A stretch of 24,396 nt of DNA. Origin: a virus. Shown here piece by piece: positions 1,656-19,036 of this stretch; position 1 is the first letter of the stretch; every line of letters begins with the position of its first letter. The position numbers and the translations under genes were made by a program. The notes below the pieces were generated by a model, which was given only the letters and a program-made list of their open reading frames with translations, did no database searches and was not told the DNA's origin. The stretch is taken from the IMG/VR virus record IMGVR_UViG_3300025127_000267, positions 1 to 24,396 of that record; one strand, 5' to 3'.

Positions 1656-2909
1656 ATGTCTAACATGCTAGAACAGGCTATTGTCGATGCTGCTGCATTG
1701 CGAGAGGCCGCCCTCAAAAATGCCGAGCAGGCTATTATTGAAAAATATGCCCCACAAATTAAAGAGGCTGTTGAGGCCATGCTTGAGACTGAAGATTTAA
1801 ATGAAAAGCACTGCATGAAAGGTGATCGCGTAAAACACGAGGGTGTTGTCGTTGAAGTTGTTTACGAAGAAGACGATGATGGAATGGTAACAGTTAAAGA
1901 GATGGGCGGTAAGCCTTACATGGTTAGAAGGGAAGAAATCCAACAGTTAAGCGAAGAGGATTTGTTAAAAGAAGAAGAGATGGGAATGGATGCCGGTGCT
2001 ACTGGCGGTGGAGAGATTGAAGCACCTTTTGCTGGTAATCCATCTATGTCTGCTGATCAATCTGTTGAGTTTTCACTTGACATAGAGGATCTTGGTGATG
2101 GGATGATTAGCATTGATCTTGATGCACTTGAGAAAACAATGAACCTTATGGATGATGCACCAGCAGAGGATGCACTTCCTCGTGATGACGTTGCCACTGA
2201 ACTTGGTTCAGATGAACTAGGAGACCTTGATAATCTTTTGTCTGATCTTGACGACACAGAAGATACAGAAGATGATGACATGGATCTTCAATTACAAGAA
2301 TTACTTGACCTTCTTGGAGAAGATGAGGTTCTTGAGGAAGAAATTATTGTAGATATGAAGCATGATAAAGACGGAACGTTTGATACAAACGAAGCCTCGC
2401 TTGAATACAAGCAAGCCAAGCAAGAGGCGCACGATGCTCATACTGAAAAAGACGAATTAGAAGAAGAGGAAGATGACTCGGATACAGAAAACCCTGGTAG
2501 AGTTAACGATCTTCACGAAACAATTTCCGCACTTGCTTCTCAAAATGAGAAGCTTGAAAGCGTGATTTATAAGCTTCAAGATAAACTTGAAGAAACTTTG
2601 TTATCAAACGCAAAGTTAATTTACCAAAACCGCACTCTCAGCGATGCCTCCTTGAATGAGCGACAAAAAACTAAAATTGTCGAAGCCATTGCCGAAGCGG
2701 AGTCTCCAAAAGAAGCAAAGCAACTTCATGAGACACTCAAAGCTACAGTGGGATCATCCTCTAAAAAGAGGGGTCCACAATCACTAAGCGAGTCAGTCAA
2801 CCGAAGAGCGAATCTTTCGGCTATGCTTAATTCGAGACAAAACTTAAGCGAGAACAAAAGCGTTGATCCATTTATGGAGAAGATGCAAAAACTCGCAGGC
2901 ATTAAATAA
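1656..2909 (+). CDS. Prohead core/scaffolding protein (T4 gp22-like)
   Basis: The 417-aa acidic protein lies directly upstream of the major capsid gene, the position of gp22 in T4-like phages. It is the inner core on which the prohead assembles and is normally degraded by the gp21 protease. Residues 1-48 form an Ala/Glu helix. Residues ~56-98 (from KGDRVKHEGVVVEVVY) look like a small SH3-like barrel. Residues ~145-280 are extremely Asp/Glu-rich. Residues ~283-330 form a coiled coil. Residues 333-350 (LNERQKTKIVEAIAEAES) match a pattern I associate with gp22-type cores. Several L-x-E tripeptides (for example LSE at 98-100, 377-379 and 397-399) are candidate protease sites. It is longer than T4 gp22 (269 aa). 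The SD (CAGGAG) precedes the ATG at good spacing. Portal and protease genes are not in the window. Confidence 0.78.
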   Translation: MSNMLEQAIVDAAALREAALKNAEQAIIEKYAPQIKEAVEAMLETEDLNEKHCMKGDRVKHEGVVVEVVYEEDDDGMVTVKEMGGKPYMVRREEIQQLSEEDLLKEEEMGMDAGATGGGEIEAPFAGNPSMSADQSVEFSLDIEDLGDGMISIDLDALEKTMNLMDDAPAEDALPRDDVATELGSDELGDLDNLLSDLDDTEDTEDDDMDLQLQELLDLLGEDEVLEEEIIVDMKHDKDGTFDTNEASLEYKQAKQEAHDAHTEKDELEEEEDDSDTENPGRVNDLHETISALASQNEKLESVIYKLQDKLEETLLSNAKLIYQNRTLSDASLNERQKTKIVEAIAEAESPKEAKQLHETLKATVGSSSKKRGPQSLSESVNRRANLSAMLNSRQNLSENKSVDPFMEKMQKLAGIK

Positions 2910-2932: not shown

Positions 2933-4771
2933 ATGTCTATTGTTGAAAAACTAACTGAAGGCATTGTAAACCGTGATATGAAAAAAGAAGGCGCTGCACT
3001 TCTTTCTAAGTGGGAAGCCACTGGTTTACTTGAAGGCCTTCAAACCGAGCATGATAAAAACAACATGGCTCGTCTATTGGAAAACCAAGCAAAGTCACTT
3101 CTTAAAGAAGTTTCTACCATGGCCACTGGCGATGTTGAAGGTTTTGCTGCTGTTGCTTTCCCTATCGTTCGTCGTGTATTCGCCGGACTTATTGCAAACG
3201 ATCTTGTAAGCGTTCAGCCGATGTCATTGCCATCTGGTCTGATCTTCTTCCTTGACTTCACTTTTGGAGTTAATGAAATTGGTGGTTCACCTCGTATGGG
3301 TAACACTGATGGTGAATCGCTTTATGGTACTAGCCAGGTAGCGAAAGGTATTCAAGGTGGTGTTGATCTTGTCGATGCTACAACTAAAGGTGGATTTAGT
3401 GGTCCACTTCGTGATGGTGCTACTGGTTATGCTTACGGCTCTCCAAGTGGATCATTAGCAGATCTTGGTGGTAACGTTGGTGTTGCTACTGGAAACGCTA
3501 GCTACACTTCATTTACTCTTGATGGTGCTGTTACTGATGCTAACAAGAAAAGAATCAAGTATGACCCAGATATTTTATCAATTACTGATAGTAGTAGATC
3601 TGTTATCGTCTGTGATATCAAAAAAGCAAACATTACTTCATCTGAAGGGGACCCAGACTTTGAAAACCTTTCTGCGTTTGTTTTGGCCACAGCCAACCTT
3701 AATACTGGTGGTGCTGGTGGTGCTTTTGCTGATGCATTGGCTAACGTTGCTGATGTTGTACAAATTCGTCGCTTGAGCGACCTTGTATCTGCCGCAGATG
3801 CAATGACAAGTGCTGAGTCTATTCGTATAGTTTACACTGTTGCTGCTGCAAGTTATACCGCTGATCAAGCAGCCGCCGCAATTGATAACACTATCACAAA
3901 CACTGATTTAACTTTCCCAGTTAAGGATCAGTATGATGCCGTAGCTTCTGCTCCTGGTGCTCTTGTTGGAGACTTGTTCGCTCTTGAGAACAATGTCAAT
4001 ATTCCAGAGATCAACATCAAGGTAGATTCAATCGCAATCACAGCGCAAACCAAGAAGTTGAAGGCCAAGTGGACCCCAGAATTGGGACAAGACTTGAATG
4101 CTTACCACAACTTGGATGCTGAGGTTGAATTGACTTCTATCCTTTCTGAGCAAATTGCTCTTGAAATTGATCGTGAGATCCTTGCTGACCTTGTAAACGG
4201 TGCAAAAGCTGCTACTTATTACTGGTCTCGCTCTCCAGGTCTTTTCGTTAATCGTGAAACTGGTGCTGAACTTGGTGCAAACAAAGCTGCTCCAGATTTC
4301 ACTGGTACTGTTAGCGAGTGGTATGAGACTCTCATTGAAACCATCAATGATGTATCTGCTCAAATCCACAGAAAGACACTTCGTGGCGGCGCTAACTATG
4401 TTGTTTGTTCACCTGAAGTAGCAAACATTCTTGAATTCACTGCTGGATTCCGTGCGAATGTTACTGCTGATGCTGACCGTGGCGACATTGGTGCTGTTAA
4501 TGTTGGTTCTTTGAGCCGTAAGTTTGACGTAATCGTTGATCCTTACTTCCCACGAGGAGTTATTCTTGTTGGACGTAGAGGTAACTCATTCCTTGAGTCT
4601 GGTTATGTCTACGCACCTTACGTGCCACTGCAAACAACTCCTACCATCTTTGGGCCAGAGGACTTCGTACCTAGAAAGGGTGTGATGACTCGTTATGCCA
4701 AGAAGATGGTCCGTCCAGATATGTACGGATTGGTAATCTGTCGTGGACTTCTTGGTGAAGAATACACCTAA
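2933..4771 (+). CDS. 23: Major capsid protein (T4 gp23-like)
   Basis: The 612-aa protein is the main head shell subunit. Residues ~65-105 carry the gp23 signature (a GDVEGF stretch, then FPIVRRVFAGLIANDLVSVQ and PMSLPSGLIF). Residues ~372-417 carry the second (LKAKWTPELGQDLNAYHNLD, then AEVELTSILSEQ). T4 gp23 is cut by the gp21 protease after an (L/I)-x-E motif at residue 65. Here LKE at 57-59 stands in the same place, so mature protein probably begins at V60. It is longer than T4 gp23 (521 aa); the extra length falls in the Gly/Ala/Asp-rich middle (~115-340). The start is preceded by a strong SD (ATAAGGAGAAA) nearly identical to that of the 199-aa gene downstream, which fits very high expression. 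A terminator follows 29 bp after the stop. Identity is secure. Confidence 0.95.
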   Translation: MSIVEKLTEGIVNRDMKKEGAALLSKWEATGLLEGLQTEHDKNNMARLLENQAKSLLKEVSTMATGDVEGFAAVAFPIVRRVFAGLIANDLVSVQPMSLPSGLIFFLDFTFGVNEIGGSPRMGNTDGESLYGTSQVAKGIQGGVDLVDATTKGGFSGPLRDGATGYAYGSPSGSLADLGGNVGVATGNASYTSFTLDGAVTDANKKRIKYDPDILSITDSSRSVIVCDIKKANITSSEGDPDFENLSAFVLATANLNTGGAGGAFADALANVADVVQIRRLSDLVSAADAMTSAESIRIVYTVAAASYTADQAAAAIDNTITNTDLTFPVKDQYDAVASAPGALVGDLFALENNVNIPEINIKVDSIAITAQTKKLKAKWTPELGQDLNAYHNLDAEVELTSILSEQIALEIDREILADLVNGAKAATYYWSRSPGLFVNRETGAELGANKAAPDFTGTVSEWYETLIETINDVSAQIHRKTLRGGANYVVCSPEVANILEFTAGFRANVTADADRGDIGAVNVGSLSRKFDVIVDPYFPRGVILVGRRGNSFLESGYVYAPYVPLQTTPTIFGPEDFVPRKGVMTRYAKKMVRPDMYGLVICRGLLGEEYT

Positions 4772-5974: not shown

Positions 5975-7237
5975 ATGTCATTTCCAGAATTAACCCCAGC
6001 GTCGAATACAAGTGCAATTATTTTACCAGCAACTGGTAACACTGATGATGTTGTTGCAACCCTAGCAATTAACTTTTACGGCGCTAGTGAATTATTTGTA
6101 ACAGGAGCAGCAGCCCAAGTTGCATACACTTATAAAAGACTGGGAGGGGATGTCCTTGATATTGAACTTACAGCAGATAACGTCTATAATCACTACGAGG
6201 AGGCCGTTTTAGAGTATTCCTATATCTTGAACCTCCATCAGGCAAGAAATGCGTTAGGAAGCGCTCTTGGAGGCGAGACAGGGTCTTTTGACCACAAAGG
6301 AACTGTAACTGGTACTGATTCTGTTTCCCTTAAGTATCCAAAGTTTGTTTTTGATTATGCTTTTAGAGTTGCTGATAAATTCTCTACTGAATCTGTAATT
6401 GGTGGAACTGCCAGAATATACTCTGCCTCTTTTGACACTGTTGCTAATCAACAAGATTATGACCTTCAAAATATTGTAAGCGCATCAGCACACGCCGGCG
6501 GTGTGCCTTATGCAGACTTCACTGATAATTCAAAGGATAAAACAAAGAGAATTAAAATTCGTCAAGTATATTATGTCACTCCTCGACAAATGTGGAGATT
6601 CTATGGATACTACGGTGGACTTAATGTTGTTGGAGATCTTCAGACATACGGACAGTATGCTGATGATTCATCTTTCCAGGTGATCCCTGTTTGGCAAAAT
6701 AAAATGCAAGCGATTCAATATGAAGATCATCTTTACACTAGAACATCTCATTACTCATATGAAATCATAGACAACAGATTGAGGCTTTACCCAATACCAG
6801 ATAATGTATCTCCAGAGAAATTCTGGTTTAGATTTTCAATTGAGGATAATGATGCTTTTGCAACCGGCTCTTATGACTCTGGTGTTGATGGAGTTAATAA
6901 CATGAACACTCTTCCAATGGAGAATGTCCCATTTAAGAGTATTAATTCAATTGGTCAACAGTGGATTAGAAGATTTGCCCTCGCTTTGTCGAAAGAAACT
7001 CTCGGACAGATTCGAGGAAAGTTTGGAAACCAAGTTCCAATCCCCGGTGACAGTGTAACTCTCAACGCCACTGAACTTTTATCTCAAGCAAAAGACGAAC
7101 AGAATACTCTTCGTGAAGAACTTAACAAACAACTTGACGAGATGCTTTACTCTAAACTCGCCGAGACAGATAAAGGCATGATTGATAATACCAATGCAAT
7201 GGTTGGCAATACCCCACTTAAAATTTTCGTAGGATAA
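5975..7237 (+). CDS. 13: Neck protein (T4 gp13-like)
   Basis: The 420-aa protein is assigned by pattern and position. Residues ~50-90 (AYTYKRLGGDVLDIELTADN, then YNHYEEAVLEYSYILNLHQA) correspond to the N-terminal pattern of T4-like gp13: a short helix ending R-R/K-L-G, an I/L-D/N-I/V strand, then a helix with a regular Y-x-E heptad. Gp13 and gp14 form the neck that closes the filled head below the portal and accepts the tail. The middle (about 205-290) has the aromatic-rich YYVTPRQMWRFYGYYGG segment and the strand pair RLRLYPIP. The C-terminus is helical and charged. The protein is longer than T4 gp13 (~310 aa). It is first in an operon with gp14- and gp15-like genes, as in cyanophages. An SD (GCGGAGG) precedes the ATG. 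Confidence 0.72.
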   Translation: MSFPELTPASNTSAIILPATGNTDDVVATLAINFYGASELFVTGAAAQVAYTYKRLGGDVLDIELTADNVYNHYEEAVLEYSYILNLHQARNALGSALGGETGSFDHKGTVTGTDSVSLKYPKFVFDYAFRVADKFSTESVIGGTARIYSASFDTVANQQDYDLQNIVSASAHAGGVPYADFTDNSKDKTKRIKIRQVYYVTPRQMWRFYGYYGGLNVVGDLQTYGQYADDSSFQVIPVWQNKMQAIQYEDHLYTRTSHYSYEIIDNRLRLYPIPDNVSPEKFWFRFSIEDNDAFATGSYDSGVDGVNNMNTLPMENVPFKSINSIGQQWIRRFALALSKETLGQIRGKFGNQVPIPGDSVTLNATELLSQAKDEQNTLREELNKQLDEMLYSKLAETDKGMIDNTNAMVGNTPLKIFVG

Positions 7238-7241
7238 CATA

Positions 7242-9911
7242 ATGAAGTTTAATGATAGCACTTGGAGAAAGTTTCTCCTAGAGTCAAAAGAACAGGTCAC
7301 AGAAGCCACAGAAGAAGAGATCGAGTATCTGGGAGACCTTCTTGAGATGCCTCCGTCTGCTTTGCCGTTTGATGATTTTTTCAATGGCAAGTATCGCATG
7401 GCTCAAACCTTTAGCGCCACAGAATCTACAGGTATTCTTGCTGACTTAGAGAAATGGTTTGGCAGAGCCGGTTGGACTATCTATCTTGACGAATCAGGTA
7501 AAAAACCTGTTCTTAAGGGAACTAAAGTTGTCGAAAAAGAATTCACAGATAAAGAAGGTAACAAAAGACAGGTGACAAAGACAGTTGATTTAAAGTTATC
7601 AAAAATCGCCTCTCGCATAATCTCCTTTATTAACAACTATGAAAACTGGAAAGAAGGAGTGGATTTTGCCTGGAATCTTGCTCAGGAATACACAGATAAA
7701 ATTGGAGAACTTCAAAGAGACGAAGACGGAGATTTGATAGGCTATGAGGAACTTAAGGCTGAATATCTTCCAAGAGTGCAAAAGGCCGGAAAAGTCTCTA
7801 GAAAACTTATTGATTCATTCAAGGAATTGCTTGGAAATGCAGCCTATCAAAATTGGGATAGTGATGCAGCGGAAGCCTATCGCCATTCAAAACTCGGCGG
7901 TGATGCAAAAGGCCACGGAAATTATTTTCAAACAGTCCTTGCACCACCTGCTAAAAAAGTCGCTGACTTTCTTTTGGATGGAAGCAAACTAGAAGACTTA
8001 ACCAAAAACATTGACAATTACAAGTTGCAGAACTACATCATTTATTCTAGACACCCAATCGATGTCTATCGTATGTCTGACTTCCGTGGACTTAATTCTT
8101 GTCACTCCTTACCTTCTCGTAAAGGAACAGTATCATTTGACGAATACAATGTGTGTGCTTTGGCTGAGGCTCACGGTAACGGTCTTATTTCTTATGTTGT
8201 GACTGATGCTAGCATGAGAGAATTTGTAGGAGCAGAAGAAGGGCAGGAAATAACCCCAGAGATGATTAGAGAGAAACTTGACCTACACGAACTACCAGAA
8301 GCCGGAGATGGAGAAATCTTTGCAGACGAAGAAAGAGGCGTTGAGGGTATGGTTCCCGTATCAAGGGTTAGAATTAAGCATGTGTCATATGATAGCAACG
8401 GCGATGATGATGACCCAATCAGACTTCTTGTTCCACAAGGAAACATTTATGGACAAAGAGTTCCTGGTCTTGTGGATCACCTTTACAAAACCACAGTAGA
8501 AGCACAAAAAGAAAAGATTGAGGCCATTGCCGAGAAGGAACTTACAAACAAAGAAAATGTTAGCATGTATGCTTTTACTCGTTATGGCGGTTCATACCAA
8601 GATTCTGGTTATCGTGTTAAAGATGCTTTGCCAAGAATGTTTAACATTGTATTTCCTGACGTTGAGATTAACTTCATCGGCTCAATAAACTATGACAATG
8701 ATATGGAGAGGGAATTAGCCGCTGAGGCTGGGTTTATGAACGAAGCCGCAGTTGAAGAACTTATCCAACAGGCAATTGATGGTCTTGGTCTTTCATCTAA
8801 CATCGATGTTAATTATGAAGTTGAACGATGGGATGAATCTTTTAACATTAGTATTAGTGCTACTGTTGAGTTTCGTTTTGAATTTCCAAGACAAACCGGC
8901 ATGACTTACGCTGAAGCATCATCTGTTAATGATCTAATCGATAGCAAACTTGAAAACTTTGGTGAATTGCTGGGTCCGCAAGAAAGTCTAGTTGATAATG
9001 TTACAACAACATACATCGAAGACCCAACATTTTCAGGTTACAAAGTATTGTTAGACATTAACAGCGATTACTTGATAATGATGACTTCGGAAGAATACTG
9101 GCAGTATGAAGAGATAGAGTATCAACTTGAGCAAGTTTTTGGTGGTGATGGTTCTGGATACGGAGTTGGCCTTGGATTTGGCAATCTTGCAACGCGAGGT
9201 GGCCCAATACAACAGGTGGTTTATGCAGCACTTCAACAAGATGACCTTATGCCTGGTGGTAACGAATACAAGTTTGGCGAAATAGCCGAGAACGAATTCC
9301 AGGCCGGCTACAACACACCACTTGTTAATGGTGACTTTGAAATTGATTTTGAACTTTACCATGACGATGAAACTGGTGAGCCAATGTCCTCTGGTTACAG
9401 TATTCAGGGTACAACCGAGTATCAAAAAGACGAAGAAGAAGGTATCAAGATTGCTGCACTTCTCAACTTTGCACGCACTCAAGACTCGTCCCCAAGATCC
9501 TCGGAGATTATCCGTGCAGTTGTGTATGATGCACTTGGAGGTGAGGTTGCACTGAGAATTCCAGCAGACAAAATGAGAATTTACTTTGAATTAGAAGAGG
9601 AAGAAGAAGATCAGTTTGTATACAAATTTGGTTGGTACGCTAATGAGTATGACTTCGAGAAGAAATCAGACATCCAAGATCACCTTGATGCAATAGCAGA
9701 GGAAGCCTACTTTGAGAACATCAATGACCATCTTGTAGATTACATTGATGAGAACATTCCTCTTGAAAAATTAGGTATTGCAGATCTTATCGCCCAGATG
9801 GACCAGGACCTCGGACAGACGCCATCACAGGTTTCCTCTGAAGAATCAGCACCTGAGCAGGGAGTGACTGAGTCAAAGAGAAGAGTCAAACTAAGAATTT
9901 TAAGAGGATAA
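7242..9911 (+). CDS. Large unknown protein, possible head-internal protein
   Basis: I do not recognise a named family in this 889-aa, strongly acidic protein. Its N-terminus, MKFNDSTWRKFLLES, resembles the T4 capsid-targeting sequence (MKTYQEFIAEA in the internal proteins). It has the same length, aromatic-basic helix and an L-x-E tripeptide (12-14) where gp21-type protease would cut. Residues ~265-325 form a distinct conserved-looking segment with RHPIDVYRMSDFRGLNSCHS followed by a cysteine in YNVCALAEAHGNGLISYVV; the Cys/His/Glu content could suit an enzyme, but no catalytic set can be assigned. Residues ~365-415 (RGVEGMVPVSRVRIKHV, GNIYGQRVPGL) continue that domain. The remainder holds long acidic, beta-strand-rich repeats and ends with basic KRRVKLRILRG. 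It is inserted between the gp13- and gp14-like genes, where T4-like phages have no such gene. Start: ATG 5 bp after the gp13-like stop, with AGGA upstream. Confidence 0.62.
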   Translation: MKFNDSTWRKFLLESKEQVTEATEEEIEYLGDLLEMPPSALPFDDFFNGKYRMAQTFSATESTGILADLEKWFGRAGWTIYLDESGKKPVLKGTKVVEKEFTDKEGNKRQVTKTVDLKLSKIASRIISFINNYENWKEGVDFAWNLAQEYTDKIGELQRDEDGDLIGYEELKAEYLPRVQKAGKVSRKLIDSFKELLGNAAYQNWDSDAAEAYRHSKLGGDAKGHGNYFQTVLAPPAKKVADFLLDGSKLEDLTKNIDNYKLQNYIIYSRHPIDVYRMSDFRGLNSCHSLPSRKGTVSFDEYNVCALAEAHGNGLISYVVTDASMREFVGAEEGQEITPEMIREKLDLHELPEAGDGEIFADEERGVEGMVPVSRVRIKHVSYDSNGDDDDPIRLLVPQGNIYGQRVPGLVDHLYKTTVEAQKEKIEAIAEKELTNKENVSMYAFTRYGGSYQDSGYRVKDALPRMFNIVFPDVEINFIGSINYDNDMERELAAEAGFMNEAAVEELIQQAIDGLGLSSNIDVNYEVERWDESFNISISATVEFRFEFPRQTGMTYAEASSVNDLIDSKLENFGELLGPQESLVDNVTTTYIEDPTFSGYKVLLDINSDYLIMMTSEEYWQYEEIEYQLEQVFGGDGSGYGVGLGFGNLATRGGPIQQVVYAALQQDDLMPGGNEYKFGEIAENEFQAGYNTPLVNGDFEIDFELYHDDETGEPMSSGYSIQGTTEYQKDEEEGIKIAALLNFARTQDSSPRSSEIIRAVVYDALGGEVALRIPADKMRIYFELEEEEEDQFVYKFGWYANEYDFEKKSDIQDHLDAIAEEAYFENINDHLVDYIDENIPLEKLGIADLIAQMDQDLGQTPSQVSSEESAPEQGVTESKRRVKLRILRG

Positions 9912-9914
9912 TAA

Positions 9915-10403
9915 ATGTCAAAATGGGAACAACCAGCTTCGCCACCACCTCCACTATTTCTTGGAGAAAAAGAAAAGAATCTTGTAAAGCAAATCAACGA
10001 TGAAATTATTGAACGAGTTGTTGGACAACAGGTTCTTTACTTCCCAATTGACATTGAACACACAAATTATCATCCAATCTACGGAGAAGCAATACAGAAA
10101 ACATTTCTTCACCCTGTTAGAGTGCATGCACTAGTTGAGTATCAAGGAGTTGAAACCTCTGATATGAGTGGTATTGCAATTGACAAGTCAACAAAGATTA
10201 AGATCAACTTTCATAAGAGACGCTTAACTGAAGACCAGAACCTATTTGTAAGAGAGGGAGACTTTGTTAGATACGGTAGTATTTATTATGAGATTGTAAA
10301 ACTCAATGAGCCAAAACTTCTGTTTGGACAAGTAGAGGCACCACGCTTTGAAATACAAGCAGAGTGTATTAGAGCAAGGGATGGGTTGTTTAATGCCGAG
10401 TGA
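9915..10403 (+). CDS. 14: Neck protein (T4 gp14-like)
   Basis: The 162-aa protein matches the layout of T4-like gp14. It has an N-terminal helix leading into GQQVLYFPID (37-46) and NYHPIYGEA (51-59). A beta segment with VRVHALVEYQGVE follows, then INFHKRRL, and finally REGDFVRYG...YYEIVKLNEPKLLFGQ, which corresponds to the R-x-GD-x-hydrophobic, F-E-I, F-x-x-G series near the gp14 C-terminus. It is shorter than T4 gp14 (256 aa). Gp14 joins gp13 in the neck ring. The gene sits between the 889-aa gene and the gp15-like gene and overlaps the latter by 11 bp if the second start is at 10393. AGAGGA precedes its ATG. The N-terminus contains a Pro run (ASPPPPL). Confidence 0.68.
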   Translation: MSKWEQPASPPPPLFLGEKEKNLVKQINDEIIERVVGQQVLYFPIDIEHTNYHPIYGEAIQKTFLHPVRVHALVEYQGVETSDMSGIAIDKSTKIKINFHKRRLTEDQNLFVREGDFVRYGSIYYEIVKLNEPKLLFGQVEAPRFEIQAECIRARDGLFNAE

Positions 10404-14245: not shown

Positions 14246-14836
14246 ATGGGTTTTTGGAAAGAAAATAGCGTTGAGCCTAAGAGACTATTTAGGTTTAAGA
14301 TTCAATTAGATTCAGCAGATGGTACCCAAGGTGTAACCGGTGGTGGTATGTGGTGGGGAAAAAGTGTAAAGATCCCAACCTTTACTTCAAGTCCTGTAGA
14401 GCATCAGTATCTTGATAATGTTTACAAATTTCCTGGGAAGGTAAGATGGCAAGATATCACCTTAACCATGGTTGATCCGAGTAATCCTGATGCTGTCTCA
14501 CAGGTAATGAATTTACTTGAACAAAGCGGATATCACGTTAAAGATCCAGGAGAGTTTCAAACTATATCTAAGAAAAAGGCCACTGATCAATCAGTTAGAA
14601 ACCTTACTATTACCGTGATTGATGCTGATGGTAATGATATTGAAATATGGACTGTTATTAACCCAATGGTTGTAGACGCTGATCTTTCGACTTTTAATTA
14701 CGATTCAGATGAACTTCGAGAAATCACTATGACAATTGCTTATGATTATGCTCAGTGTCAAATCAAGGCAGGAAATAGAAGCGTACCAGAGCGTAATTAT
14801 AAATTTGAGAAAGCAGCAACACCAACCGGTAACTAG
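14246..14836 (+). CDS. 19: Tail tube protein (T4 gp19-like), copy 1
   Basis: The 196-aa protein builds the inner tail tube through which DNA passes; T4 gp19 has 163 aa. Visible gp19 traits are the N-terminal MGFWKENSVEPKRLFRFKI (the P-x-R-x-F-R-F strand), WWGKSVKIPTF, a W-Q-D-I-T-L-T strand near residue 70, and a C-terminal pair of strands with IEIWTVINPMV, LSTFNYDSDELREITMTIAY and DYAQ. It begins 32 bp after the sheath stop with AAGGAG upstream. A copy of ACTATTTA lies inside the gene (14284-14291), probably by coding chance. The second tube-like gene follows directly. Confidence 0.92.
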   Translation: MGFWKENSVEPKRLFRFKIQLDSADGTQGVTGGGMWWGKSVKIPTFTSSPVEHQYLDNVYKFPGKVRWQDITLTMVDPSNPDAVSQVMNLLEQSGYHVKDPGEFQTISKKKATDQSVRNLTITVIDADGNDIEIWTVINPMVVDADLSTFNYDSDELREITMTIAYDYAQCQIKAGNRSVPERNYKFEKAATPTGN

Positions 14837-14866: not shown

Positions 14867-15394
14867 ATGGGGTTCTGGAAAGATAATACAAGTGATCCAA
14901 AAAGACAGTTTCGCTTTAAGGTTAATGGTGATGGAGAATGGTATTGGGCAAAGTCAATTGACAAGCCCACTGCTGAAGTCTCCAGTACATCCTATCAGTT
15001 AATTAATCACAAGTTTAATTTTCCTGGGGTTGTGACATGGCAACCAGTTAGAATTGTTGTTGTTGATGACTCAATAAGAACTGGTCAAATTTATGAATTT
15101 TTAAAAAAATCTGGATATAACAATCCCGGGTTTGGTGGTGGTGCCGTTCCTAATGTAGACGGTATCAAAAAAGAAGGCTTCGATGGTTCTAATGATATTA
15201 TTTTTAATCAACTTGACCCGGATGGTTTTGCACTAGAAACATGGACCTTGCATAATAGCATAATAACAAGTATTGATTTTGGAAGATTAGATTACTCTTC
15301 AGATGATTTAGTTGAACTAACAATACAGATTACATACGACTTTGCTGAGTTAGTTCAGAAGCCATCGCCAAAATCAAAACCTACTACTCCATAA
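14867..15394 (+). CDS. Tail tube paralogue (T4 gp19-like), copy 2
   Basis: The 175-aa protein is clearly related to the preceding tube protein. It starts MGFWKDNTSDPKRQFRFKV, against MGFWKENSVEPKRLFRFKI in copy 1. It keeps the W-Y-W-A-K-S-I-D-K-P strand, FPGVVTWQP, a lengthened middle (GYNNPGFGGGAVPNVDG) and the closing LETWTLHNSIITSIDFGRLD and YSSDDLVELTIQITYDFAE strands. It is shorter at the C-terminus, with a basic Pro/Ser/Lys tail. The ATG at 14867 has a GAGGG SD 4 nt upstream. It may be a minor tube subunit, such as a tube initiator or terminator-adjacent ring, or a second major tube protein. Sequence alone does not decide. Confidence 0.88.
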   Translation: MGFWKDNTSDPKRQFRFKVNGDGEWYWAKSIDKPTAEVSSTSYQLINHKFNFPGVVTWQPVRIVVVDDSIRTGQIYEFLKKSGYNNPGFGGGAVPNVDGIKKEGFDGSNDIIFNQLDPDGFALETWTLHNSIITSIDFGRLDYSSDDLVELTIQITYDFAELVQKPSPKSKPTTP

Positions 15395-15426
15395 AGTCCA
15401 TGACAATAAATTTAATGAGGTGAAAA

Positions 15427-16263
15427 TTGGGAAGAAATAATTCAAGCCGGCTTGGAAATAAAAAACCAGATCAAGCAGAGGCTCCACCAGTAAGTTTACT
15501 GGATTTTGTTGCTCCAACAGAGATTGTAGATATTCCTTCAAAGGGTAAATACTATGCTAAAGGTCATCCAATGTATGGTAGAGACTCTTTGGAAATCCGA
15601 TTTATGACAGCAAAAGATGAAGACATCTTAACAAACAGGTCATTAATCACAAAGGGAATCGTCCTTGATCGTTTTCTTCAGAGCATCATTATTGATGATT
15701 CAATTGACGTTGGAGATCTTTTAATTGGTGATAAAAATGCTTTGCTGATCGCAGCAAGAGCCACAGCCTATGGTGCTGGTTATGATGCGTCTTTAAAGTG
15801 TCGAGAATGCTCTGTAACGAACGAAATGGTGTTTGACCTAACCAAACCCACATTTATTGCTTCGCGGCTTACAGACACCCTTAACATCGCCGAGAATGAT
15901 GATGAAACGTTCTCCACAACACTTCCAATGTGTAAGTTTAATGTTAAGTTTAGATTATTGACAAACAAAGATGAGACTTATCTGGCTAAATATATTTTGG
16001 ATAACATTGAGAGCGAGTCTTTAAGTGCCACCCTAGAGCAGCTTAAGATTGTCACCCTTCAGATTCAAGATGTTGATGATCAAGAAGTTATTCATAAGGT
16101 GTTAGAGAATATTGTTGCTGCTGATGCCCGGCATTTAAAGTTGTGTCTTGAGGCGGCCACTCCTAATATTGAGATTAAACAAACCATGAAGTGCAAAAAC
16201 TGTGGGCATACAGAGGAGGTAGAGGTCCCATTTGGGATCGACTTTTTTTGGCCTAAGCAATGA
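15427..16263 (+). CDS. gp26-like baseplate/tail assembly protein with zinc-binding-type cysteines
   Basis: The start is TTG at 15427, with GAGGTG ending 4 nt upstream; the first in-frame ATG is about 48 codons later and would remove conserved-looking sequence. The 278-aa protein has two CxxC pairs (C125/C128 and C256/C259, in LKCRECS and MKCKNCGHTEE) that probably bind one zinc. It ends in the aromatic FGIDFFWPKQ. This layout fits the T4 gp26-type baseplate-hub assembly family (Pfam T4_baseplate), although T4 gp26 is shorter (208 aa). Residues ~25-60 contain the VDIPSKGKYYAKGHPMYG segment I associate with that family. The 3' end overlaps the next ORF in another frame, the position gp51 has after gp26 in T4. 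The family call is from memory of patterns, not a search. Confidence 0.68.
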   Translation: MGRNNSSRLGNKKPDQAEAPPVSLLDFVAPTEIVDIPSKGKYYAKGHPMYGRDSLEIRFMTAKDEDILTNRSLITKGIVLDRFLQSIIIDDSIDVGDLLIGDKNALLIAARATAYGAGYDASLKCRECSVTNEMVFDLTKPTFIASRLTDTLNIAENDDETFSTTLPMCKFNVKFRLLTNKDETYLAKYILDNIESESLSATLEQLKIVTLQIQDVDDQEVIHKVLENIVAADARHLKLCLEAATPNIEIKQTMKCKNCGHTEEVEVPFGIDFFWPKQ

Positions 16264-16438
16264 CTACATAGAGTCCGTGTATGAGCAGTTCTTTTTACTT
16301 AAGCATCACGGAGGGTGGAGTTTAACAGAAGCTTATAATTTACCTGTCGGTCTTCGTAAATGGTTTGTAGAACGACTTACAAAACAATTTGAAGATGAGG
16401 CTAAAGAAATAGAGAAGGCTCGTGGAAAGTCAAGATAA
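16232..16438 (+). CDS. Small gp51-like/tail-chaperone-like protein in overlapping frame
   Basis: The 68-codon ORF overlaps the gp26-like gene by 32 bp in the +1 frame. The frame opens after a TAG at 16220-16222, and the only start before the conserved-looking part is TTG at 16232, with AGGAGGT (16214-16220) 11 nt upstream. The next option, GTG at 16277, has a poor SD. The segment YIESVYEQFFLLKHHGGWSL and TEAYNLPVGLRKWFVERL is the sort of helix pair seen in tail assembly chaperone second parts (P-x-x-x-R-x-W/L). The tail is highly charged. It may be made alone from TTG, or as a frameshifted extension of the gp26-like protein at the T7 run (16243-16249). T4 gp51 follows gp26 in the same way. 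The function, helping tape-measure/hub assembly, is inferred from position. Confidence 0.62.
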   Translation: MGSTFFGLSNDYIESVYEQFFLLKHHGGWSLTEAYNLPVGLRKWFVERLTKQFEDEAKEIEKARGKSR

Positions 16439-16465
16439 GGCATCCATGAGCATTTCTAATTTTTG

Positions 16466-16473
16466 ACTATTTA
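16466..16473 (+). promoter_or_regulatory. Late-promoter-like octamer ACTATTTA (P6)
   Basis: The octamer lies in the 56-bp gap after the small overlapping gene and ends 21 nt before the GTG start of the 114-aa gene. It probably drives the tape measure/baseplate operon. Confidence 0.55.
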
Positions 16474-16494
16474 ATAAGAGACGGAGGGATTCGC

Positions 16495-16839
16495 GTGATC
16501 CGTATTGATTTTACAAAGAAAGAGGTTCTTCAAGAGTCTTTTATGAAAATGTGGGGTTTCTGGAATAAGAAACTTCTGAAATACATTTATGGCAAGGATG
16601 CAAACGTTGTTGCTAATCTTAATGAAGAAGATGGAGAGGACGTTAAGTTTGTTATCCGTGGAGAGTATGAAGACGTAAAGGCTTATGCTCGAGCGTTGAG
16701 TCTCGAGAAAGAATACCTTGAGTCCTATGTTGCTCGTGGTAAAGACGACGAAGACACAAAGGCAATCAAAGCCGAACTTGATAAAGCCGCCGCAGACTTT
16801 ACACAGAAGACAAATCTGCCATGGCCTTTCAGAGATTGA
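16495..16839 (+). CDS. Small unknown protein preceding the tape measure
   Basis: The start is GTG at 16495, with CGGAGGG 7-8 nt upstream. The 114-aa product is charged and helical, with MWGFWNKKLLKYIYGKD near the N-terminus and a C-terminal helix rich in Lys, Asp, Glu and Ala, ending TNLPWPFRD. There is no signal peptide, membrane segment or cysteine. It is the first gene after an ACTATTTA motif and ends 10 bp before the tape measure, so it is probably a tail/baseplate assembly helper or minor hub part (the T4 gp28 slot by position). No family is recognised. Confidence 0.6.
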   Translation: MIRIDFTKKEVLQESFMKMWGFWNKKLLKYIYGKDANVVANLNEEDGEDVKFVIRGEYEDVKAYARALSLEKEYLESYVARGKDDEDTKAIKAELDKAAADFTQKTNLPWPFRD

Positions 16840-16849
16840 GGGGACCTAA

Positions 16850-19036
16850 ATGTCAGAACTAGAAAAAAATAAACAACTTTTAACTGAGATTGGTTCACTT
16901 ATTGAGTCCAATAAGGAACTATCTGATAGTCAACTTCAGGTTGAGAGAGATCTTGCCGCTGCTCAGGCTCAATCTTCAGAGGTTCTTGGAGATATAATTG
17001 GTAGGCGAGAAGCGCAAATGCGTCTTCTTGAGGCCGAAATTAATTTACATACCCAAAGCAGACAAGAAACAAAACAAATTATTGATAATATAAGAAGCGG
17101 AAATCTTGCTTTAACAGAACAGAACGATCTAATAGCATCTTTGACACCTGAAGCCAGAAAGGTCCTTGAAGTCTTTCAAGAGATGAACCAAGTATCCGAT
17201 GCTCAAAACAAATATGGTAAAGAACAAAAGAAGTTACTTGGAGATATTGCTGGCTCCATGGGTATTGTTACAATGTCTAGCAGTGGTTTTCTTGGTAATA
17301 TTATTAAAGTTGGTAAAGGTCTTAGTGAAGGTGCTGAGCCAGCGGCAGCTGCATTTGCAGAGAATTTTAAAAACACTTTTAACTTTACTAACTTGACATA
17401 TAGCAGTTTACTGAAGATTGTTGAGGCAACTGTAATGCTTGTAGTAGAGGCTGATAAGGCAACTGCTGCATTGGCACGATCAACAGCCACAGGTAGAGAG
17501 TTTGCCGACTCTATGATTGCTGCTCAGGATGCTGGAAACCTTTTGGGAGTTAGATTAGAAAATGCCGGTAAAGCAACCAGTTCCTTAATCACTCAAACAA
17601 CAAACTTTGTTAACCTTTCAGAAACTGCTCGAACATCTTTGATAACACAAACAGCATTGCTTGAAAAACTTGGAGTAACCAATGCAATGGCAGCAGAGAC
17701 GTTTCAGTTTTTAAACATTAACCTGGGGATGACCGCCGCACAAACAGAGGCAGCGACCACTCAGTTAGCAATGATGGGAACAGAACTTGGTATATCAGCA
17801 GAGCAAATAACCTCTGACTTTAATCAATCTCTTGGAACATTGGCTGTTTATGGATCTAGATCAATGCAGGTTTTCCAAGGTTTAGCATCTGCTGCAAAAG
17901 TCGCTGGGGTTGAAGTTTCAACCTTACTTGGTATTGCTAAAAAGTTTGACACATTCCAGGGCGCCGCAGAGGGCGCCGCAAAATTTAATGCTCTTTTGGG
18001 TACTCAATTATCAACTACTGAGATGTTGATGATGTCTGAGGAAGAAAGAATTGAGACTCTCATAAGACAGACTCAAGCACAAGGTGTTGCTTTTGGAGAC
18101 ATGGACAAATTTAGTCAGATGGCCTTAGCATCTGCTGCGGGTATTGATGATATGAACGAGGCACAAAGAATCTTCGGTATGAACTTGGGACAATACGAAC
18201 AATATAGATCAGAGATGGAAAGAAGCGCTAATGCTCAAAAAGAATTTGAAGAGGCAATTAGAGCCACTGCTGATATTCAAGACAAATTTAAAATTCTTAC
18301 TGCTGAATTTGCCGTCATGGTAAAACCAGTCTTAGAAGGAGTCCACGCAGCATTAGACGGTGTGCTTACTTTCCTTGATTCATTTCCTAAAGAATCTAGA
18401 GAGAGATTCATGCAGATTGTTGGTGCGTTAGGAACATTTGCTATTGCTCTTAAGGTTATTGCCCCTCTAGTAGCAATAGTTACAGGTGGTTTTGGTGGTC
18501 TTGCCGCTGCACTTGGAATTGGTGGTGCAGCCGGTGCGGCAGGTGCAGGTGCAGCCGCAGCAGGTGTTGGGGGTGTCGCTGCTGGTGGTGGTCTTGTCGC
18601 TGGTATTACAGCCGTGACAACTGCTTTGGGGCCATTATTATTAGGCCTCGGTGCATTAGCGGCTGCTGCTGCTGGGTTAGGTGCATTAGGTAAAGTTATA
18701 TTTGGTGCTGATACCTCCTCTATAGATGCAGCATCAGTTAGTATGTCAGAACTTGGCGATAGTGCCCAACGATTAAATGGATCTGAAAGTGTTTTAAATG
18801 TTGGTACTAGACCACAGACATTAGCAAATAATGCGGTGCTAGAGAATGCACAAATTAATAATTTGGCTGTTGATGCCGCAACTGGTCGGACTATTGCTGG
18901 AGTTACCACTAGTGGAGTTAGAGACTTAGACCTAGTTAGTCAACTTTCTAACGCTCTTCGAGGACAACAGATCAGTTTAAATGTTGACGGTCAACAAATG
19001 ACAGCATTTGTAGAGATGAGGGCTAATGCATCATGA
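16850..19036 (+). CDS. Tail tape measure protein (gp29-like role)
   Basis: The 728-aa protein has the standard tape measure design. Residues 1-115 form a long Gln/Glu/Leu/Ala coiled coil (SELEKNKQLLTEIGSLIESN and onward). A largely helical Ala/Thr/Gln-rich body follows, with few prolines. A long hydrophobic Ala/Gly/Val stretch at ~524-617 looks like a cluster of membrane-inserting segments and is where tape measures usually cross the membrane during DNA entry. The C-terminus (~640-728) is polar. It sets tail length; at about 0.15 nm per residue a 728-aa protein suggests a tail of roughly 110 nm. GAGGGGA lies just upstream of the ATG. The next gene starts inside its stop (ATGA overlap), so the pair is coupled. 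Confidence 0.85.
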   Translation: MSELEKNKQLLTEIGSLIESNKELSDSQLQVERDLAAAQAQSSEVLGDIIGRREAQMRLLEAEINLHTQSRQETKQIIDNIRSGNLALTEQNDLIASLTPEARKVLEVFQEMNQVSDAQNKYGKEQKKLLGDIAGSMGIVTMSSSGFLGNIIKVGKGLSEGAEPAAAAFAENFKNTFNFTNLTYSSLLKIVEATVMLVVEADKATAALARSTATGREFADSMIAAQDAGNLLGVRLENAGKATSSLITQTTNFVNLSETARTSLITQTALLEKLGVTNAMAAETFQFLNINLGMTAAQTEAATTQLAMMGTELGISAEQITSDFNQSLGTLAVYGSRSMQVFQGLASAAKVAGVEVSTLLGIAKKFDTFQGAAEGAAKFNALLGTQLSTTEMLMMSEEERIETLIRQTQAQGVAFGDMDKFSQMALASAAGIDDMNEAQRIFGMNLGQYEQYRSEMERSANAQKEFEEAIRATADIQDKFKILTAEFAVMVKPVLEGVHAALDGVLTFLDSFPKESRERFMQIVGALGTFAIALKVIAPLVAIVTGGFGGLAAALGIGGAAGAAGAGAAAAGVGGVAAGGGLVAGITAVTTALGPLLLGLGALAAAAAGLGALGKVIFGADTSSIDAASVSMSELGDSAQRLNGSESVLNVGTRPQTLANNAVLENAQINNLAVDAATGRTIAGVTTSGVRDLDLVSQLSNALRGQQISLNVDGQQMTAFVEMRANAS

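Follow-up and report, generated by a model that had tools for sequence, protein, structure and literature searches.

Knowledge of the proteins that T4 injects together with its DNA comes from a handful of small examples, each confined to its lineage. The internal proteins IPI, IPII and IPIII (95–193 aa) bear a short N-terminal tag (MKTYQEFIAE) with spaced aromatic and hydrophobic residues, which ends in [LIV]xE↓A (xTE↓AT in IPI) and is all that these otherwise unrelated cargo proteins share. T4 propeptides are short (PMC5694885), and for IPIII ten CTS residues suffice for targeting (PMC9026906). Alt, a large injected enzyme from the head interior, is processed by gp21 at both ends (PMC9026906), while in phiKZ-like giant phages (SPN3US, phiKZ) a protease related to gp21 cleaves the ejection proteins, which also reside in the head, behind Glu (PMC10052503, PMC9026906). 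The 889-aa protein described here shares with the T4 internal proteins the build of the tag, the type of its end, including the IPI-like variant, and its presence on unrelated cargo, but the tag consensus is different (MKLLFENWRKFLxE), the cargo is much larger and no sequence kinship of the mature part was detected. With Alt it shares propeptides at both ends, which are predicted here, although no sequence similarity was found; the ADP-ribosyltransferase profile PF01129 is also unmatched in T4 and therefore uninformative for this comparison. A predicted cut after Glu by the prohead protease is common with phiKZ-like ejection proteins, which differ, however, in the motif (AxE or S/AxE) and in the much greater length of most propeptides (PMC10052503, PMC9026906).

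The window analysed is the whole viral record of 24,396 bases, in which the protein is encoded among genes of the head and neck:

1656..2909, plus strand: scaffold-like gene in the gp22 position, presumed from place and composition (no library match)
2933..4771, plus strand: T4-type major capsid protein (Pfam Gp23, E=7e-74)
5975..7237, plus strand: gp13-like neck gene upstream of the 889-aa ORF (PHROG 211 head-tail adaptor, E=3e-9)
7242..9911, plus strand: ORF of 889 aa, protein of a putative head-cargo family (full-length homologues and codon-position pattern of differences, see below)
9915..10403, plus strand: conserved downstream gene, 64–98% identity in relatives (no library match)

The original prediction placed the ORF between gp13- and gp14-like genes; the upstream neighbour agrees with this, while the downstream one found no counterpart in the libraries that would make it gp14-like. 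Other matches in the window are a tail sheath, two tail-tube genes and a baseplate hub. The nearest named capsid proteins belong to Flavobacterium phage immuto, an uncultured megaphage, Microcystis phage Mel-JY01 and Rhodothermus phage RM378, and therefore sequence comparison places this phage near the “Far-T4” group (PMC4360716). Far-T4 phages (RM378, immuto, Mel-JY01), with 43–50% capsid identity in aligned pieces, also provide the nearest named gp13-like proteins, but the family of the 889-aa protein was present in none of the named relatives tested. Two peculiarities were registered along the way: approximately 200 residues are inserted between the N-terminal stretch and the Gp23-like region of the capsid protein (2933–4771), and the adjacent genes 14246–14836 and 14867–15394 both match tail-tube PHROG 4542, which looks like a tail-tube duplication.

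The ORF is intact, starting with ATG at 7242 and with its stop codon ending at 9911. Full-length homologues (L001–L003) were found in three IMG/VR contigs with 84–89% identity, and since third codon positions differ most in comparison with L001 (61/45/148 for the three positions), the ORF is under coding constraint. The protein is acidic (pI 4.4; 70 D and 99 E versus 50 K and 37 R), and its sole cysteines, C287 and C305, lie together with H271 and H288 in one segment, as the original prediction described for residues ~265–325. A degenerate DNA pattern of this segment matched 32 IMG/VR stretches, all encoding relatives, a profile scan of IMG/VR gave 270 of them, and a scan of species genomes added one, in a marine MAG contig that is probably viral. 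Two predicted structures in BFVD, both unnamed, probably belong to relatives as well (A0A516LC34, E=1e-27, and A0A516MAR6). Searches with the 889-aa protein in Pfam, NCBIfam, PHROGs and PDB sequences gave no significant match; when four members or cores of the family were compared with 50,697 named phage records by tblastn, no relative was found at the limits used (one search returned matches at E≥5 only), and the core profile was unmatched in T4, KVP40, HTVC008M, P-SSM2, RM378, immuto, Mel-JY01 and two megaphages. Judging by these comparisons, the family is widespread, large and so far without a name. Some members are unusual: one genome (G005) has, besides a shorter member, a 1,416-aa paralogue in which the core motif recurs (171886–176136); the subgroup L111, L113, L116 and L120 has a QE[KE]CW-G-Y...NCV-type segment ahead of its family domain; and four members match PHROGs of unknown function (9737, 4359, 727, 28131), possibly via the QE[KE]CW-type segment.

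Conservation along the protein peaks in its centre:

8004..8621, plus strand: conserved central domain, residues about 255–460 (alignments A4 and A5)
8046..8105, plus strand: core motif SRHPIDVYRMSDFRGLNSCH, residues 269–288, with R270, H271, P272, D274, R277, M278, S279, D280, S286, C287 and H288 invariant across the 58 sequences of A4
8154..8156, plus strand: C305, invariant in the same alignment

Invariant polar residues at this place favour an enzyme as the mature protein, while libraries and structure searches offered no recognisable family or fold for the domain. The model of the full protein (mean pLDDT 75.9, residues 1–20 mostly below 50) had no convincing match among PDB structures by Foldseek or VIA. 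Its top Foldseek row, a LAGLIDADG homing endonuclease, combined E=8e-4 with TM 0.07–0.17 and rmsd 23 and had no Pfam match; such rows were discarded as weak, and so were HMG-CoA reductase and biotin ligase among the VIA rows. For the isolated domain (pTM 0.70) the top Foldseek and VIA-align rows were GNAT enzymes only, with a compatible order of strands and helices, so that one might see here a distant GNAT-like acyltransferase, a cargo acetylating some host target. However, E was at least 0.18 and Z at most 4.7, which is below the stated background, the part with invariant Cys and His is modelled with pLDDT of 52–64, and a Pfam search of 56 members at E≤1, which could miss distant ones, gave no GNAT family. 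Thus, of the profile search and structure prediction suggested earlier for the centre, the models were obtained and a profile match was not; the GNAT rows are far too weak for a claim, and we regard this assignment as rather unlikely.

At the N-terminus the following elements can be distinguished:

7242..7304, plus strand: predicted targeting propeptide, residues 1–21 (MKFNDSTWRKFLLESKEQVTE), supported by positional enrichment of the tag; in the model a low-confidence helix at 5–15 and disorder at 16–23
7263..7283, plus strand: W-R-K-F-L-L-E tag motif, residues 8–14, with a possible secondary cut after E14 (frequency of E after the N-terminal W-motif, see below)
7296..7307, plus strand: predicted main cleavage site VTE21↓A22 (in an automatic alignment column 21 is E in 51/51 members with an N-terminus and column 19 is L/I/V in 49/51; compare STITE↓ATLT in T4 ipI)

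Read from the T4 record, ipI begins with MKTFKEFTSTTTPVSTITE-ATLTSE, and removal of 19 of its 95 residues leaves 76 aa, which is its published mature length (PMC3012670). VTE21-A22-T of the window fits ITE↓AT of this protein better than LLE14-S15 does. The triplet L12-L13-E14, taken originally for the cut site, is indeed present, but as the main cut E21↓A22, giving a mature N-terminus at A22, seems likelier than E14↓S15, and S15 may mark a second cut. Residues before E21 vary by type. Most members have W-x-[KR]-[FY]-[LI]-x-E, while about 20 of the 51 lack the W-motif and start with MKIKIKKKQ-like, LTKDFLRSLIIEEM-like or other sequences; alternative types include LTKDFLRSLIIEEMNKQ in L016, L035 and L087 and KIKIKKKQVLSE in L071 and its kin. 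Since columns 21 and 19 are fixed while the preceding residues change type, the putative cleavage site appears more constant across the family than the tag. Conservation of E21 could instead serve folding, as an ordered domain of the model starts near residue 24.

The same tag was found on other proteins of related phages. Among 1,244 ORFs of 13 contigs W.[KR][FY][LIV].[EQ] occurs within the first 26 residues of 22 ORFs, as against 0–2 ORFs for every stretch of equal length further along. A looser T4-like motif, which also picks T4 ipII and ipIII as positive controls, gave 38 ORFs N-terminally versus 1–5 per later window. The W-motif is thus present at N-termini more often than by chance. If E is not required (W.x[FYH][LIVM]), it follows in 32 of 39 near-start ORFs versus 7 of 32 elsewhere. 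Tagged neighbours in G004 and G005 include a NUDIX protein (E=3.5e-18), a protein kinase (5e-8) and a sub-threshold HAD-like protein; among the tagged proteins of G009 and G011 are a nucleotidyltransferase (6e-5) and AAA_33 (2e-10). Over the 12 tag codons in G005 and G009, 3.3–3.4 differences are synonymous versus 1.5–1.9 nonsynonymous (G004, with three tags, offers too few for this comparison), which suggests that within one genome the tag peptide is kept while its codons drift. A short synthetic tag probe gave chance-level matches only in named phages.

The closest relative of the window (L122/G001) has two tagged genes, 15163–17805 and 36880–37389. The second (minus strand; MSKQRIILESWRKFLNE...) encodes 169 aa, lies beside the S77 protease gene and has a homologue in G002; its ParB/sulfiredoxin-like appearance, noticed by eye, received no support from Pfam. 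Eleven tagged genes, most of them without a known family, stand in a row in G009 (71965–86429), where the products of 82683–83939 and 84515–85900 start very similarly. Several small proteins encoded in a row at 87351–93545 of the same contig carry a MKITKTQLKQIIKEEL-like N-terminal motif, registered at N-termini of 15 ORFs versus 0–2 elsewhere. Since some family members (L016, L035, L087) have this motif in place of the W-tag, it may be a second head-targeting tag.

A similar site is seen at the opposite end of the protein:

9864..9908, plus strand: C-terminal VTE877 with a 12-residue basic tail SKRRVKLRILRG, possible C-terminal propeptide

Of 53 complete members, 49 have near their C-terminal end an [LIVMT]xE that leaves 10–16 residues, mostly exactly 11–12. 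The tail beyond it is usually basic, and in one subgroup it ends with W-K-x-F-L. By analogy with Alt, cleavage may take place here too.

An S77 prohead protease is encoded in 11 of 15 contigs, namely in both nearest relatives (G001, G002) and nine further ones, while the four contigs without it are fragments of 42–73 kb; the window fragment itself has no protease gene, and a portal family search (PF07230) gave no match anywhere. Because the tag stands on unrelated proteins, [LIV]xE is invariant, the closest relatives possess S77 and T4 ipI corresponds so well, the N-terminus can be read as capsid-targeting, and the resemblance of its first 15 residues to the T4 internal-protein targeting peptide, as originally proposed, is well supported as a sequence signal. 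Together with the gp23-type capsid and the [LI]xE type of site, these are features of T4-type CTS internal proteins.

In eight contigs (G001, G002, G006, G007, G008, G011, G015, G016) the gene follows directly 3′ of the gp13-like gene, as it should if the product were a structural neck or connector protein whose site of assembly keeps its gene between the gp13-like gene and the neck genes downstream. However, in G004, G005 and G009 the gp13-like gene and the next one abut with gaps of a few bases, the family gene being located about 40–120 kb from them (in G004 and G005 it opens a row of unrelated tagged genes), and the related phage Mel-JY01 has no family gene at this place. On these grounds the family gene is not an obligatory neck part, and since an unordered tag with protease-type sites is also unexpected in a neck protein, such a role is quite improbable. 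Equally little credence can be given to a component of the prohead scaffold core, digested and lost at maturation rather than delivered. T4 core proteins are cut by the same protease at the same motif (PMC5694885), and the 889-aa protein is both acidic and rich in [LIV]xE triplets, but the gp22 position is occupied by a separate scaffold-like gene, the conserved charged Cys/His centre suggests activity, tagged enzymes accompany the family gene, and this gene also occurs away from the head locus. A leader for some non-head target, for instance localisation inside the infected cell, would fit the absence of the W-motif in some members, but it is very unlikely given the close T4 CTS correspondence, the protease-type site and the T4-type capsid and S77 protease in the same phages.

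We therefore return to the head-targeting reading and consider it likely that the 889-aa protein is a head-loaded, protease-trimmed and probably injected enzyme. By analogy with T4, the N-terminal 21 residues would serve as a targeting propeptide and attach the precursor to the prohead's scaffolding core, after which the S77 protease of the phage would cut behind E21, perhaps also behind E14, and probably behind E877 at the C-terminus. The acidic product of ~97 kDa would stay inside the head and, like T4 internal proteins and Alt, would probably be injected with the DNA, so that its conserved Arg/His/Asp/Cys centre may act in the host as an enzyme or inhibitor. The family, the tag, the conserved sites, the protease in relatives and the company of other tagged genes are observations, whereas packaging, cleavage, injection and catalysis are all inferred in this scheme, and the alternatives of the original prediction, an injected effector or a head-internal enzyme, both remain compatible with it as inferred roles. 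More tentatively, and with somewhat more doubt than confidence, one can imagine that uncultivated Far-T4-like marine phages have a common head-loading code, unlike that of T4 in sequence and placed at both ends in this family, which delivers a set of mutually exchangeable enzymes (kinase, NUDIX, nucleotidyltransferase, HAD-like and others), where the 889-aa protein would be the most widespread cargo found and would have a new enzymatic fold or chemistry based on the R-H-D-R-D-C-H-C centre.

With a readable tag one may draw up, from sequence alone, a list of the proteins that abundant uncultured phages probably inject, and this list already includes proteins with kinase, NUDIX and nucleotidyltransferase domains. 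A conserved, unstudied domain is now pinpointed in the middle of the cargo found most widely, and the effects that these phages may exert on the host in the first minute become testable.
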